A stretch of DNA of 64,000 nt from Haloarcula halobia. GTDB lineage: Archaea; Halobacteriota; Halobacteria; Halobacteriales; Haloarculaceae. The notes under the pieces were generated by a model. The model searched no databases, was not told the DNA's origin, and saw only the letters and a list, made by a program, of their open reading frames with translations. A program made the position numbers and the translations under genes. Below, one piece after another: positions 52,851 to 61,627 of this stretch (the first letter of the stretch is position 1; every line of letters begins with the position of its first letter). The stretch spans positions 496,001-560,000 of the forward strand of contig NZ_CP119787.1 of NCBI RefSeq assembly GCF_029338255.1, read 5' to 3'.

Positions 52851-55800
52851 TCACCAGTTCAGTAACGTTCCCTCATGCGGTGGGGTATTCGACTCAAGAA
52901 CTTGTCGTTCCTCGTCGTTGAGCTTGTAGAGATCATAAACAGCGTCGTTGAGTTCCGAATATGCATCCAGAATCTGCTGTCGGTCTGAAGGCCCACAACT
53001 TTGGATTTGCTTCGTGCATTCCTCAATCGTTTCTATGAGATGCTCGTCATCCTGGGGAGGGGCCGGAAGACGTCCGAAATAGATCGGTGTCAAATCCATC
53101 GAACGGATCGCTCGATTGTAGATTCTCGTGTACGCATACCAAGCAAACAAGCTGGAATTCATCAGCCCACAAAGCAGTTCGACAGAGTGATTTTTGGGGA
53201 TTGCATGAATGGAGGTGTCTGGAATAGTCGCCCCATCATAATCTACGGCACACTGAATGACAATTCGGTCAGTCGGGTCGGTTATGTGTGCGAGAATACG
53301 CTGGAATACAACCTTTTCTTTGCCTTTCCCAGCTAAGTGGAAGTTCGAGCGTTTCTTGATATCCGAGTCAAGATAACTCTCACTCACGAATCGGAACTGG
53401 CCAATGTCGTCACCTCGATATGCCAGCAAATCGCTCGGGTCGCCCGTGAGGTACGATTTGAAGGCATCTATTCCCTTTGTTGCCTCTGCAAACTCGACAT
53501 CATCGAATGTATCGTACTCGCTGAGTTTTTTGAGAATATCCTCGTTCTCCTCGTCAACCCACATATAGAATCCATCTTCATCGAAGGCAGACTGCTGGTA
53601 CCCTTGCTCGAAGAACTCAGTGTTACTGCCGTTATCGTTGCGCCGACCGACGACAATATCATCATCTACGTCGGTGGACGAGAACATCAGAATGATTTGC
53701 TCTTGTTTGACACCGTCGAACGCTTCGCGGAGGTCAATCAGGTAGTCGAGGTCTGTTTCCAAGAGATGGTTGCGAGCGTCGGCCCACCGGTACGCGTACG
53801 TGAGTGCCTTCGGAACAACGAATGAGACTTGTCCACCACTGCGGGTGAGGTGTTCAGATCGTGAGGCGAACACCATGGATGAGTGGTTCTCGTCCGGGTA
53901 GTTACCCAGTGCAGATTCGGCCTCTGAAATATCGATGCCATATGGTGGGTTTCCAATGGCTACGTCGAACCCACCATCTTGGAACACTTCATAGAACTCC
54001 AGTGGCCAGTGAAGGTACTCCACGTCTTCTAAGTCCTCTTCGGTCAAATACCGGAAGATTTCGAATTCTTCGATATTCCCCTCAACCCTATCGAGTATCT
54101 GTTGAAGACGGCCCTCGGGGGTGCGGATGACGTACTTGTTGCTGAGCGTCATCGAGACGTAGCCATCTTTCCCCTTGTTGATTCGAAGGCCCTTCGCATC
54201 ACGGAACTCGTCGTCAAGTTCCTCTTTCCGACTATCACTTAATGCGTCCTCAAATTCTATCGAGATTTTTTCGATGGCTTTTCCCGGCAGATCCGGCGCT
54301 TCAACGGTATCCATCTCATGCTCGAACGACACATCAGCATTCCGTAGGTCATCAAGGAGTTTCTCGTTCAGTGTGGAGTTATATTCCGTATCCAGCTCTT
54401 GGATTTCGTCCTCGATGTCGTGTGCGTCCTCACCATACAGTTGTTTGTACTCGTTCACCAGCTCTTGTCGTTCCTCAACGAGTTCCTCAACAGACTTCTC
54501 TGTCCATTCGCTAAGTGGGGACTGCTGATGCTCGTCATTCTCATCCTCAATTTGCAAACGTTGGGTGTCAGTGTACCCAATCAATGAGTTCCCCTCCCGA
54601 ATGTTGAACGCCACGTTGGGTAGCGCGAGTTCACCCGGGTCTAAATCATCGAGATCGGTCTCAGAGAGATCAGCCATGATTGAAAGCCAAAGGCGTAATT
54701 TAGTGATCTCGACACCTGGCCCGACAATATCAACACCGTACAGGTTCGCAAGCACCGTTCGTTTCTTTAGAGTATGGTTAGCTGGGGAGTCACTGTGCTT
54801 CTCGTACAGAGAGCGACGAATCGCTACAATTTCATTCAGTACAGACGTCAAAAAGTGTCCACTCCCACATGCAGGGTCAAGAACACGGAAATCATCCACA
54901 GTTGCGATTAGAGAGTCAATCTGGTCTTCATTGGGTGACAGTGCATCGACCAGTTCGTGGATATCGTCATATCGAGCTATTTCGCCTTCGCGCCAACCCC
55001 AATCCTGTTGCAGCGTCTGTTTAAATTCAGTCAACAACCCCTCTTTTACCGACCTGTCTGCGGTATATCGGGTGATATTGTCTGGAGTGTAGTACGCCCC
55101 GAGATCCTTCTGAGCACCAGTTTCTCCGGCCAGATAATTTATTGTTTTCTCAAAAACTGTCCCGAGCACACTCGGATCAAGCTCGTCGGGCCCACCAGTA
55201 GTTGAGAACTCATAATCCTCCAGCAAATCAATAATATTGAGCAGGACAGCGTCCGAAACAGTGAATTTCTCTTCGTCCTCAATGTTAGCTCGGAATAAAC
55301 CACCGTTCAGATACGGGATATCTCGATACGTGGAACGCTCTTGGATTTTGTCGGGTCGCTTTCCTTTGGGTTTATTGAAAACGTCATACACTAACGGTTG
55401 AATAAATGTGGAATAGAAGTCACCAAGATGCTCGCCGTCTTCGTGTGCTTGTTTCACCTCATTCAACAGAGCATCATCAACAACACCAGTGTCCTCAAGG
55501 AATTTGATGAAAACCAGGCGGTTCATTAATTGAACAGAGAATAGTCTCCGTTCCTCTTCGCCCGCGCTTGCTGGTGAATCAAGCCCATCTGCTACGAGGC
55601 ATCTGTCGGTGTCGCGTCCGTCGCTGTCTTCATCGGTGATTCCGAAGACAATCTCAATATATCCGTCATAGAAAGACTCAGTGATCTCCTTCTTTTTCCG
55701 GCGGATTATCGACTGAACACCAGATGCGATGTTGGTGAAATTGTCAAAATAGAACGTACGATAGAACTCTTCAAGCGTTTGAAGGTGTTCCTCAGAAAGG

Positions 55801-56423
55801 ACATCCTCAGCGTCCGATTTATTCGTTGCCTGGTCTTCAAATAGCGCGATAAATACGGGAGTGAGGTCTATACTACTGATTTTATTAATCGTGTGCGTGT
55901 CGGGGTCTTTTTTCAGGAGAATCCACCGCAGACCGTCCGTCACCATGCCGAAGTCACTCTCGAATGGTTCGTGATGGAGCCATCCCTTCACTTGACCAAT
56001 CCCGTGTTTTTGTTGGTCGAGGCGCTTGTTGATGGGTTCTGCTTCGATCAGAAGCTGGGTGGAGTCTATGTTTGGGTAGTCGTCAAGCGGAACGCTGTAG
56101 TCTACCCATTGGTCTTCATCTTCTGCTGGGGTATTGACTTCCTGATGTGCGTACGGGAAGTTGAGCTCCTCGAACAGCTGTTCGATAATGACATTTTTTG
56201 TGAACTCCTCTGGGGCCTGGCCTTTCTGATCGTGGGCCGAGGTGAGGAGAGTCCCATTTTTGAGTATATCTTTCAGGTCGTCGCCATCGATGCGTTGGCG
56301 TAGTTTAGCGACAATGTCCTGGATTTTGTTTCCGAGCTGGAGGGGTATATCGTCGGGGACAGATGTTTGGAGGTCTTGGAGCGTGAATTCTGTCGGTGTA
56401 GATCGAGACCGCCGAGAACTCAT
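52851..56423 (-). CDS. Type IIG (Eco57I-like) restriction-modification enzyme
   Basis: A single-chain restriction endonuclease and N6-adenine methyltransferase, 1190 aa. An N-terminal nuclease-like region holds STQLLIEAEPINKRLDQQKH (about residues 125-145, Glu-x-Glu pattern). SAM motif I DPACGSGHFLTSVLNEIVAI is near residue 517; catalytic motif IV DVAIGNPPYGIDIS near residue 825; a target-recognition region follows (about 940-1120). The long central helices are Asp/Glu-rich. It would modify and cut foreign DNA at one site, so host methylation is expected. A small coiled-coil gene lies directly upstream. Confidence 0.88.
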   Translation of the reverse strand: MSSRRSRSTPTEFTLQDLQTSVPDDIPLQLGNKIQDIVAKLRQRIDGDDLKDILKNGTLLTSAHDQKGQAPEEFTKNVIIEQLFEELNFPYAHQEVNTPAEDEDQWVDYSVPLDDYPNIDSTQLLIEAEPINKRLDQQKHGIGQVKGWLHHEPFESDFGMVTDGLRWILLKKDPDTHTINKISSIDLTPVFIALFEDQATNKSDAEDVLSEEHLQTLEEFYRTFYFDNFTNIASGVQSIIRRKKKEITESFYDGYIEIVFGITDEDSDGRDTDRCLVADGLDSPASAGEEERRLFSVQLMNRLVFIKFLEDTGVVDDALLNEVKQAHEDGEHLGDFYSTFIQPLVYDVFNKPKGKRPDKIQERSTYRDIPYLNGGLFRANIEDEEKFTVSDAVLLNIIDLLEDYEFSTTGGPDELDPSVLGTVFEKTINYLAGETGAQKDLGAYYTPDNITRYTADRSVKEGLLTEFKQTLQQDWGWREGEIARYDDIHELVDALSPNEDQIDSLIATVDDFRVLDPACGSGHFLTSVLNEIVAIRRSLYEKHSDSPANHTLKKRTVLANLYGVDIVGPGVEITKLRLWLSIMADLSETDLDDLDPGELALPNVAFNIREGNSLIGYTDTQRLQIEDENDEHQQSPLSEWTEKSVEELVEERQELVNEYKQLYGEDAHDIEDEIQELDTEYNSTLNEKLLDDLRNADVSFEHEMDTVEAPDLPGKAIEKISIEFEDALSDSRKEELDDEFRDAKGLRINKGKDGYVSMTLSNKYVIRTPEGRLQQILDRVEGNIEEFEIFRYLTEEDLEDVEYLHWPLEFYEVFQDGGFDVAIGNPPYGIDISEAESALGNYPDENHSSMVFASRSEHLTRSGGQVSFVVPKALTYAYRWADARNHLLETDLDYLIDLREAFDGVKQEQIILMFSSTDVDDDIVVGRRNDNGSNTEFFEQGYQQSAFDEDGFYMWVDEENEDILKKLSEYDTFDDVEFAEATKGIDAFKSYLTGDPSDLLAYRGDDIGQFRFVSESYLDSDIKKRSNFHLAGKGKEKVVFQRILAHITDPTDRIVIQCAVDYDGATIPDTSIHAIPKNHSVELLCGLMNSSLFAWYAYTRIYNRAIRSMDLTPIYFGRLPAPPQDDEHLIETIEECTKQIQSCGPSDRQQILDAYSELNDAVYDLYKLNDEERQVLESNTPPHEGTLLNW

Positions 56424-57498: not shown

Positions 57499-57630
57499 AT
57501 ACGGCGAAGCGTGTCCCCGCTTCGTCACCCTCCCTCCAATATGAGTAGAACACTAGAGCGTGTCATAGACCTCTTCACATACTATAGTCAGTTTGAATAC
57601 TATTATAGCGGGTTATTAGATTAGAACTAC

Positions 57631-57645
57631 GTGCACTAAGTGCAC
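57631..57645. promoter_or_regulatory. Perfect RHH operator candidate
   Basis: GTGCACTAAGTGCAC is a 7-bp arm palindrome with a single central A. It lies downstream of the RHH stop, inside the element, and next to AT-rich sequence with TTATTAGATTAG on its left. A near-copy sits at 57885-57899 upstream of the RHH gene. Confidence 0.6.
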
Positions 57646-57660
57646 ACAGTTCAAAATTAG

Positions 57661-57861
57661 TTAGAGAGTACCCTTTCGTTTCCGAATAATGATTTCTCGT
57701 ACCCGTTTAACGTGATTCGTCTCGGATTGAACGAACGCTGTGAGGATGGCTTCGACGATCTCGGAGCGGCTGGCTCCGAGATCGTCACACTCAGCGACCA
57801 GTTCATCCACTTCTCGCACGATTTCCTCGTCAACAGCGACGCCGAACTTATCTTTCGCCAT
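57661..57861 (-). CDS. Ribbon-helix-helix regulator within the mobile element
   Basis: A 66-aa MetJ/Arc/CopG-type regulator: MAKDKFGVAVDEEIVREVDE (beta strand, helix A) and DDLGASRSEIVEAILTAFVQ (turn, helix B), then a basic tail NHVKRVREIIIRKRKGTL for DNA contact. RHH proteins bind as dimers to palindromes. The palindrome at 57885-57899 lies between its AT-rich promoter (AATAATATC on this strand) and its ATG, fitting autorepression. A perfect 14-bp inverted repeat with 5-nt loop (57754-57786) is part of the coding sequence for the turn between the helices. It is the sole gene of the 405-bp element. Confidence 0.85.
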   Translation of the reverse strand: MAKDKFGVAVDEEIVREVDELVAECDDLGASRSEIVEAILTAFVQSETNHVKRVREIIIRKRKGTL

Positions 57862-57884
57862 AGCTAAAACAAGCTGAGAACAGC

Positions 57885-57899
57885 GTGCACCAAGTGTAC
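57885..57899. promoter_or_regulatory. Imperfect RHH operator candidate over the RHH start region
   Basis: GTGCACCAAGTGTAC matches the palindrome at 57631-57645 in 13 of 15 positions. It falls between the promoter-like AT-rich run (57903-57912) and the RHH start 57861, where a repressor would block initiation. Confidence 0.6.
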
Positions 57900-58135
57900 G
57901 GCGATATTATTTCGTTAGAGCCGACTCAGCAAGCTATGAGAACTATTCTATGACACGCTCCACTAAACAACAAAACAGAACAGAACCTGAATAGACTACG
58001 CAGAACCGGCTTCTGTGCCGCCTGCAACAAATACAAACACGACTGCAAGCAACGTGTCGAAATTCGCGAAACACGCTGGCTTTGCAGCAATTGTGACCAA
58101 ACCACCATCGGCGACTTCCTCAAAGGAGACGACCG

Positions 58136-58483
58136 ATGACGGTCGTTACCATCGAATCCTACAGCGACCTCGAGTCCTGCTATGAAATCAGCAGCAAGGG
58201 AGCGGACGCGATTGCAGAGTTGATGTCGGAAGGCATCGAAACCATCGTGTTCGTCCCGGGCTGGATGGCCGACGGCACTTCCCTAGAATCGATTGCTGGT
58301 GGGAAGACGTTGTTCGTCGCGGAAGTGGAAGATTACAGCTCGAAATCGTGGCTGGTGACTCAGCCAGACGGTCAGTCTGAATTTCTTGCTAAAAGCCAAG
58401 TCGTGGTTTTCGAAAGTGCGTCCGAGACTATCGACTCTCCACAGACGGGACTCGACAAATTCGCTAAAGGTGAGTCTCGATGA
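58136..58483 (+). CDS. Hypothetical protein (115 aa)
   Basis: A 115-aa soluble protein, MTVVTIESYSDLESCYEISS ... ELMSEGIETIVFVPGWMADG ... GKTLFVAEVEDYSSKSWLVT. An alpha/beta pattern is visible but no family is recognised. It overlaps by 4 bp both the (split) zinc-finger gene before and the zinc gene after, so it belongs to the same translationally coupled operon. Confidence 0.7.
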   Translation: MTVVTIESYSDLESCYEISSKGADAIAELMSEGIETIVFVPGWMADGTSLESIAGGKTLFVAEVEDYSSKSWLVTQPDGQSEFLAKSQVVVFESASETIDSPQTGLDKFAKGESR

Positions 58484-59372: not shown

Positions 59373-61627
59373 ATGGCTGATGTCCGCCAAACTAAATTAG
59401 GAGAACTCTTTTCCAGTTCAGTTTTTAAAATCCCTAAATATCAAAGGGGGTACGCTTGGGACAAGAAGGAAGTCCGCGATCTTCTCGAAGACATCGAGTA
59501 CTCTTACGAAGAACGCACAACCGAAGAGGGAAGCAACTTCTCCCACTACTTTGGTACTATCGTGATGCTTGATAAGGGCATCCAAGAATCTGAAACAAAC
59601 GATTTTGAAGCCTACGACATCATCGACGGACAACAGAGAATGACAACAGTGTCCGTCCTGATGAACTGTATCAACGAACAGCTCAAATCACTTGATGAAG
59701 AGAAAGTGAGTTCAGATGCACTTCCAGCTGAACTCGCTAAAAAGAACCGAGAAACATTCGTTATCTCGTACGACACCGAACGAATCGAACTCGACAGCAT
59801 CAATGACCGTGTTTTTGCATCTCTTGTTGTCCATAACGAAGAACTAGAAAATATCCGATCAGAAACAATCTCGCAACGCCGACTGATTAACGCAAAACGG
59901 GAGATTCGCAGTTGGTTGGAAGGAAAGCGAGAAAAACATGTTTCCGAGGACTCACATGACGAGTATTACGACTTCCTGAAAGAAGTGCAAAAAATCGTCA
60001 AGACCGGTCTTGAAGTGACGCAATACACCGTCGAGGACGAAACAGAGTCTGGCCGTCTCTTCGAGGTTATCAACGATAGAGGAAAGGAACTGACGAATCT
60101 GGACAAAATCAAAAGCTACCTTGTCTACTGCTCTGCTAGATTCGATGACAACGAACTATCGTTAGACATCTACCGGAATATTGGAGAGGTACTTGAAAAC
60201 ATCACTAAATATGGTGGTGAAGATAGTGATATTGAAACATTCGTCAGATATCACTGGATGCTCTTCTCGGGAGAACTCGTCCTTGCCAGACAGACAAACT
60301 CGGAATATACCACCGTCCATCGGCGCATCAAGCACCTCGAAAAGCACGCATCACTCAACCAACCCGAAAATGATGTCCGAGACTGGATTAACTCGTATTT
60401 AGACAGCTTTACTTCGCTGTTCTGTCGCGTACTTACAAATAAAATATCCCGATGAGATCAGCTCAGACTATGAGCGGACTGAGGAAATTGTGGAAGACTT
60501 GGATGGTCTGAATCGCCTCTCAGTATCAAACAACTTTTTGCCACTCCTGATGGCAACACACCATCAATACGGCATCGGGGACGAATTCCGTCGGATGGCC
60601 AGTTTATGCGAGAAAGCTCTCGTTCCGTGTATATAACGTAGCCGGACGCCGAACTGATGCTGGACGTGCTGCGTTGCAACGGCATGGGTATTGGATCGAG
60701 TGGGCTGGTCGATCTGACCATGCAAACAAGATATTCGACGGTCAACAGTCTGCACTGAAATTCAACACGCTGAATGAGGCTGCCCCGAAAACGTGCAAGC
60801 GTATTGAGTCAGAAATCGGGGACAATTGTCCGGATACCTACTTTATGGATTGTCTCCTCCGTGAGGATATTTTCGATGGAACAGACCGCAATGACGGGTG
60901 GACAGGGGTTCGTGATAACGAAGTAATTCGGTATCTTTTGTACAAGTACGAGGCACACCTGCGCGGGAAGGGTAGTCGTGATGACCTCTCGCAGTTGCCG
61001 CAGTTCTCGCAATGGAAGTCGGAAGGTATCACTATCGAACATATCCATCCGCAGTCTGCCGAAGATGATAGCACCGACCTTGCAGAGACAATAGATACGT
61101 TGGGGAACCTTGTGCTGCTGGGCCCTCGAGACAATGCTGGTGCGAGCAATATGCAGTATGAAGAAAAGTACGAAGATACGTACAGTGAGTCGAAAATGGA
61201 GATGATAAACGAACTTCCTGATCCAGAGGACGGCTGGTCTCGGGAGAAGGCGAACGATCGGGCGTTGCAGATCGTACGGTTCGCGCTGCAAGAGTGGGGT
61301 GGGATGAGTACTGCTCATGTTCACGTCCAAGAGATGCCTGACGATGTGAAGATCACCCCTACGATTCTTCGAGATATTGCTCACGAAGTCCGGAACTATC
61401 ACCAAGAGAGAGATGATGATGGTTTCACTATTCCATCAGTGCGGTTTCAGCAGGAGAGGGCCACAGGTAGTGGGTGGGTGACGATGAATAATTGTCCGAG
61501 GTGTGATGCCACTGTGGTGGATTTGCATTCGTTGGAAGGTTGGGAGGCTGAATGCAGTGGGTGTGAAACGAATCTGAAAGATCCAGTATACAAGTTCCGT
61601 CAGAGTGAGTATCTGAACGCGATATAG
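59373..61627 (+). pseudogene. DUF262/DUF1524 (GmrSD-type) restriction gene with two frameshifts
   Basis: GmrSD-type proteins cut modified foreign DNA. Frame 1 (59373-60455) has the DUF262 marks FKIPKYQRGYAWDKKEVRDL and YDIIDGQQRMTTVSVLMNCI. After a first +1 shift near 60400-60445 the sequence continues as KYPDEISSDYERTEEIVEDL (about 60442-60620). A second +1 shift near 60615-60636 leads to the last frame (LSFRVYNVAGRRTDAGRAAL), which ends at 61627. The third part holds the DUF1524 nuclease motif GITIEHIHPQSAED and TLGNLVLLGPRDNAGASNMQ, then a zinc-ribbon tail (CPRCDATV, CSGCETNL). The whole is collinear with an intact protein of about 750 aa. Confidence 0.8.

Follow-up and report, generated by a model that had tools for sequence, protein, structure and literature searches.

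A transposase-free element within a Haloarcula halobia zinc-finger gene carries an RHH gene between twin operator-like palindromes, a module that recurs with several sets of element ends

Within the window, as the 64,000-nucleotide stretch of DNA analysed here is termed, a small zinc-finger gene is interrupted by a transposase-free element of 405 bp (57556–57960), and the question raised by this locus is whether the DNA-binding protein that the element encodes serves the element itself, the host genome, or the expression of its own gene.

Anatomy of the element and its empty site

The original prediction described a transposase-free unit with perfect 14-bp terminal inverted repeats (TIRs), a CACTA target duplication and a single 66-aa RHH gene, all of which was recovered as described (Table 1); beyond the 14 perfect bp, the TIRs have an imperfect 26-nt extension that is 81% complementary. 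Since 45 further elements are built in the same way and, but for one that was seen twice, lie at other sites, a chance origin, already judged very unlikely, can be excluded, and the anatomy and mobility of the element as described are regarded as practically certain.

Table 1. Coordinates of the element and of the interrupted gene in the window
Feature	Position	Strand	Remarks
Zinc-finger gene, first five codons (ATGAGTAGAACACTA)	57541–57555	+	Rejoined frame
Left target-site duplication, CACTA	57551–57555		Read from flank; duplications in the family 5–12 bp
Left TIR (GAGCGTGTCATAGA)	57556–57569	+	Exact; degenerate extension to about 57581
Operator-like palindrome (CGTGCACTAAGTGCACA), downstream of RHH gene	57630–57646		C1:553630-553646; conserved in family, matches upstream operator in all end types
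RHH (CopG-type) gene, 66 aa	57661–57861	−	Purifying selection in family
Perfect 14-bp inverted repeat with 5-bp loop, within RHH coding sequence	57754–57786		Loop flipped in some relatives
Operator-like palindrome (CGTGCACCAAGTGTACG, + strand), upstream of RHH start, promoter region	57884–57900		From family alignment
Right TIR	57947–57960	−	Exact; degenerate extension from about 57935
Right target-site duplication, CACTA	57961–57965		Read from flank
Zinc-finger gene, rest	57966–58139	+	TGA overlaps ATG of next gene at 58136; uninterrupted syntenic homologue L252

Joining the two segments of the interrupted gene (57541–57555 and 57966–58139) yields a zinc-finger protein of 62 aa. The search for empty sites returned one uninterrupted syntenic homologue, in the haloarchaeal genome G356, which aligned without a gap at the junction over residues 1–62 (56%), and which lies between homologues of the same two neighbouring genes. 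The proposal that deletion of the element restores a 62-codon gene is thereby confirmed and, because this homologue is both gap-free and syntenic, an accidental continuity of the frame and an ancestral interruption can both be dismissed. The demonstrated effect of the window copy is the disruption of one gene. By eye, the surrounding operon of small genes is flanked on one side by a large DNA methylase-like gene (52851–56423, minus strand) and on the other by a DUF262-like gene (59373–60455, plus strand), and the region is possibly a defence or variable region.

Shared ends, a resident IS and the type-A family

A full-length IS that shares these ends, sought as initially proposed, was present in the host genome in the form of 1063-bp copies that have exactly the ends of the element, the outer 24–30 bp being common to both; 1069-bp relatives with GAGGGTG ends were also present, and reading of the flanks revealed variable duplications of 5–8 bp around several copies. 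The encoded transposase, a 330-aa protein that reached the Pfam cut-off for DDE_Tnp_1, was weakly IS1182- and IS5-like and scored below every family cut-off, and assignment of the IS to the IS1182 family (67.8 bits against a cut-off of 270) or to the IS5 family (30 bits against 140) with the relevant NCBIfam models was rejected. Such a transposase occurred in 15 of the 22 genomes with a type-A RHH gene, type A denoting the ends of the window element, as compared with 91 of 370 others (Fisher p = 4e-5, uncorrected for relatedness); the remaining 7 of the 22 had none at the threshold used. The 1063-bp IS is the likely donor of the transposase that would move the element in trans.

Further units with the same ends were recorded in the host genome. 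Two are transposase-free cassettes with unrelated cargo genes, outer 60 and 75 bp of which are 97–100% identical: E638 (G000:C1:230962-231599; 638 bp; duplication AATTCT) has a lipoprotein-like ORF, and E726 (G000:C1:2901077-2901802; 726 bp; duplication TAGGCCTTGA) a TrkA_N ORF. In combining one end set with different cargo they resemble eukaryotic Pack-type elements. A third unit, of 2843 bp (G000:C1:2656174-2659016; duplication TAACGA), contains a transposase-like ORF plus other ORFs.

RHH homologues were detected in 43 of the 392 genomes of the order. The search for paired ends confirmed that other copies exist: 46 type-A elements could be cut out with both ends, one of them occurring twice, through a genome and the corresponding plasmid record (L187, L245), and of these 33 were 405 bp, nine 395 bp and the rest 404–407 bp in length. 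Exact target duplications of 5–12 bp, mostly 6–8 bp, flanked 34 of the 46 at unrelated sites. When all genomes were scanned for exact matches to the 14-mer, most hits were isolated chance occurrences in unrelated bacteria; no viral carrier was found in phage records or IMG/VR. Homologues with at least about 77% identity, some of them truncated or at contig ends, were usually located, where the flanks were readable, 104 bp from one TIR and 75–85 bp from the other. Most genomes held few copies of the RHH gene, while genome G172 held 11, near-identical where read.

Six of the 46 type-A copies had no intact ORF by the filter applied, and the RHH gene is therefore dispensable for persistence. Three type-A derivatives of about 264 bp (L277:345-608, L278:323-586 and L282:397-659) contained a decayed RHH remnant and had kept an operator, with one mismatch in L282 and perfectly in the other two; the near-identical pair of such derivatives in G172 suggests recent mobility.

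The RHH gene and its twin operators

The RHH ORF passed the gathering cut-off of Pfam RHH_1 (PF01402) marginally (E = 3.8e-4; 20.7 bits against 20.5), a relative (L246) scoring 24.6 bits. A single-sequence AlphaFold model (mean pLDDT 79) exhibited the RHH order of helices, each at its expected place, and a fold search with that model returned no significant PDB match. The median dN/dS over 228 pairs drawn from 22 distinct genes was 0.13, indicative of purifying selection, and nearly all homologues resolvable in haloarchaea lay within transposon-like elements. In some relatives (L225, L199, L235), representing at least three module lineages, the loop of the coding hairpin is exactly inverted (CAGCC to GGCTG, CCTCTCG to CGAGAGG, CAAGCCG to CGGCTTG) at a conserved motif, which changes from SRSE to AGSE, RGSE or ACSE. 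Elsewhere, HQ_RS01075, which codes for a 72-aa CopG-like protein and is absent from strain C23, has been recorded as the top-expressed Haloquadratum gene in a natural population (PMC9684190).

Alignment of the type-A family located two 17-bp palindromes, one some 30 bp upstream of the start codon, directly after an AT-rich promoter-like stretch, and the other about 22 bp after the stop codon. Mean pairwise identities were 0.89 and 0.88 for these operators, 0.87 for the TIRs, 0.79 for third codon positions and 0.68 for other noncoding positions. The same layout was apparent in divergent homologues (46–70% identity) without type-A ends, with twin GTGCAC-NNN-GTGCAC or twin TTGCAGC-N-GCTGCAA palindromes, the latter in the clade of proteins starting MSNTEFGV or MSKTEFGV. 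The half-sites changed from GTGCAC to TTGCAG on both sides together, and with a change of K/R3 and K/R5 to N/K3 and E5 in the N-terminal strand, so that both operators change jointly with that strand of the RHH protein; the operator class switched only once on the RHH tree. Outside the haloarchaea, five loci with ~38% identity from another family of the phylum had TGTTACA palindromes, twin wherever both sides were readable, and no such palindromes were found beside the remaining distant RHH relatives from that phylum.

Spacing between the operators was 243–261 bp throughout, the position of the gene between them differing by about 20 bp between groups (about 31/22 as against 11.5/42 bp). In four of the eight arrangements of ends (C, D, F1 and F2, below) the operators were equidistant from the ends within 2 bp, at 67.5/67.5 to 78.5/80.5 and 80.5/81.5 bp, an equality reached by 74 of 20,000 shuffles with arrangements that are few and in several cases represented by one or two sequences; in A, B and E the two distances differed by 14–27 bp.

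The operator–RHH–operator module was found in haloarchaea with at least five end sets and different duplications: type A (GAGSGTGTCATAGAA; duplications 5–12 bp), type B (CATTCGTCTTTAGTTAAG; 521–522 bp; duplications 10–11 bp), type C (CTGTCCCGTTTCGAGTAT; 416–417 bp; duplication 8 bp), type D (CACTSGTTATCGCTTTAGC; 413 bp; duplication 9 bp) and type E (CATYSGTGTTCGGTTAAGA; 497 bp; duplication 10 bp). In distant genomes it was accompanied by end sets F1 and F2 and by an E-like set, and no convincing exact duplication was found for the elements concerned. The ends of B and E resemble each other, and these two types may therefore depend on a common transposase family. Each end type with at least two members formed one side of a supported branch in the RHH tree, which is based on 66 columns only. 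Occurrence of the same module in elements with different ends suggests that it is a portable means of controlling mobile DNA.

It had been proposed that such a cassette could rewire genes where it lands. Operator searches of the host genome lent this no support, and host rewiring was rejected: apart from the two operators of the element itself they returned a single weak, asymmetric site, a count equal to that of the control. The extra operator sites checked in G172 adjoin type-A ends. A role for the RHH protein as repressor of the donor IS was likewise rejected, no operator within three mismatches being present in the 1063- and 1069-bp IS. Since operators occur almost nowhere but in the elements, are missing from the donor IS, are kept in gene-less derivatives and can lie at equal distances from both ends, the RHH protein probably acts on the element rather than on the host.

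Candidate roles and known relatives

The account preferred here, and considered more probable than not, is that of a self-regulated DNA-binding module which serves the element by acting on its mobilisation by foreign transposases, the window copy being a type-A and probably MITEHsal2-like example. The DDE_Tnp_1 transposase of an IS that shares the outer 24–30 bp would move the element in trans, while the RHH protein would most likely bind both palindromes and, at the upstream operator, would probably repress its own gene. Because it would hold both subterminal sites near the two ends, the protein would act on the element, most likely by bridging those ends, and the bridged element could be a better or better-timed substrate for whichever transposase fits them. 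Other copies, and derivatives that have lost the gene, could likewise be targets of the same protein in trans. Mobility, IS-shared ends, purifying selection, twin matched operators, their joint change with the protein, near-constant spacing and the sharing of the module between end types all support an element-serving role; against it, the operators of A, B and E are unequally distant from the ends, six type-A copies persist with no intact ORF, the operator class switched only once, and the same palindromes would also be expected of a repressor that regulates its own gene and loops to a second site. Judged from sequence, bridging is the first choice of specific role and repression of transposition the second, the bridging version itself being put forward tentatively. 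Rather doubtful is the broader proposal of an end-independent accessory module, in which bridging would pair the ends of any host element, and which would have been taken up repeatedly across archaea by the ends of unrelated transposases to give better-moving transposase-free elements.

A copy-number or immunity repressor, which would block transposase synapsis from both subterminal operators such that copies limit each other's movement to the host's benefit, accords with twin sites near both ends, with trans-acting logic, with the small number of copies in most genomes and with a 66-aa DNA-binding protein, a typical repressor. It is nevertheless unlikely: the operators begin tens of bp inside the TIRs, from where direct occlusion is not obvious, a self-limiter brings the MITE copy that carries it little gain, and the 11 gene copies of G172 are hard to square with mutual restraint. 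No more probable is plain autoregulation with looping, whereby the operators would control RHH expression only and the module would persist because repression keeps the element harmless, with low read-through into neighbouring genes. The promoter-like stretch ahead of the upstream operator and a loop-compatible spacing of about 254 bp would fit this arrangement, which leaves unexplained the retention of the gene, the operator kept in the 264-bp derivatives, and the placing of the operators equally far from both ends in C, D, F1 and F2. That the gene is mere cargo, a host or plasmid regulator captured in a mobile insertion cassette and possibly useful to the host, has a precedent in the same-ended cassettes E638 and E726; the near-confinement of haloarchaeal homologues to transposon-like elements, the lack of convincing host targets for the operator and the association of the module with several unrelated end types make it distinctly improbable. 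Were the element-serving account correct, transposase-free elements would be more than passive substrates, since they would carry a conserved factor that acts on their own DNA irrespective of the mobilising transposase.

The initial statement that no named family has this make-up requires correction, given one probable relative, MITEHsal2, and a known ORF-bearing MITE, ISH2 (PMC10264941, PMC3119063). MITEHsal2 of Halobacterium salinarum 91-R6 is reported as 413 bp with an 8-bp and 411 bp with a 6-bp duplication (PMC10264941), which on subtraction gives 405 bp in both cases and, as in the type-A family, duplications of variable length. Plasmid pHSAL2 of that strain carries a 405-bp type-A RHH element (L242), and MITEHsal2, the chromosomal copies of which were compared by published length, is probably a named relative of the window element. 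No cargo, operator or wider family is given for it in the passages found in PMC10264941.

ISH2 of Halobacterium agrees with end type B in host, length and duplication (PMC10264941, PMC3119063), and it is described as mobilised by the ISH8 transposase (PMC10264941). Its ORF is expressed (PMC3119063), its protein has been detected by mass spectrometry (PMC10134880), and no stated function for that protein was found in the literature. The ISH2-matching 521-bp repeat of H. salinarum resembles the window element in its homologous RHH gene (about 59% identity) and twin GTGCAC palindromes, and differs in its CATTCGTCTTTAGTTAAG ends, 10–11-bp duplications and transposase; with other ends and a 5-bp duplication, the window element is not a member of ISH2, and has only the RHH module in common with it. 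Placing the ISH2 ORF in the RHH family, between matched and co-changing operators, suggests for it a specific function that is open to experiment. Short ORFs homologous to one another had already been noted in more than one element of Haloquadratum (PMC3119063). In a search that covered few subscription journals, no paper was found to identify these ORFs as RHH genes or to describe paired operators, operators that change together, or a module common to different end types, and an earlier description is possible.

ORF-bearing MITEs or cassettes are thus already known from archaea; what appears to be new is an RHH gene between twin copies of one palindrome, the joint change of operators and N-terminal strand, the near-constant spacing, and the presence of the module in at least five end types. 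The window element is short, bounded by TIRs and a target duplication and devoid of transposase, as are classical non-coding MITEs, in which these features likewise match a resident IS; unlike them, it and its family contain a conserved, selected protein-coding gene (dN/dS about 0.13). With IS ends, no transposase and one passenger gene it also has the make-up of mobile insertion cassettes, which are similarly mobilised in trans, and differs from these in that the passenger is a DNA-binding protein, likely with its own sites beside both ends, and is found with many end types.
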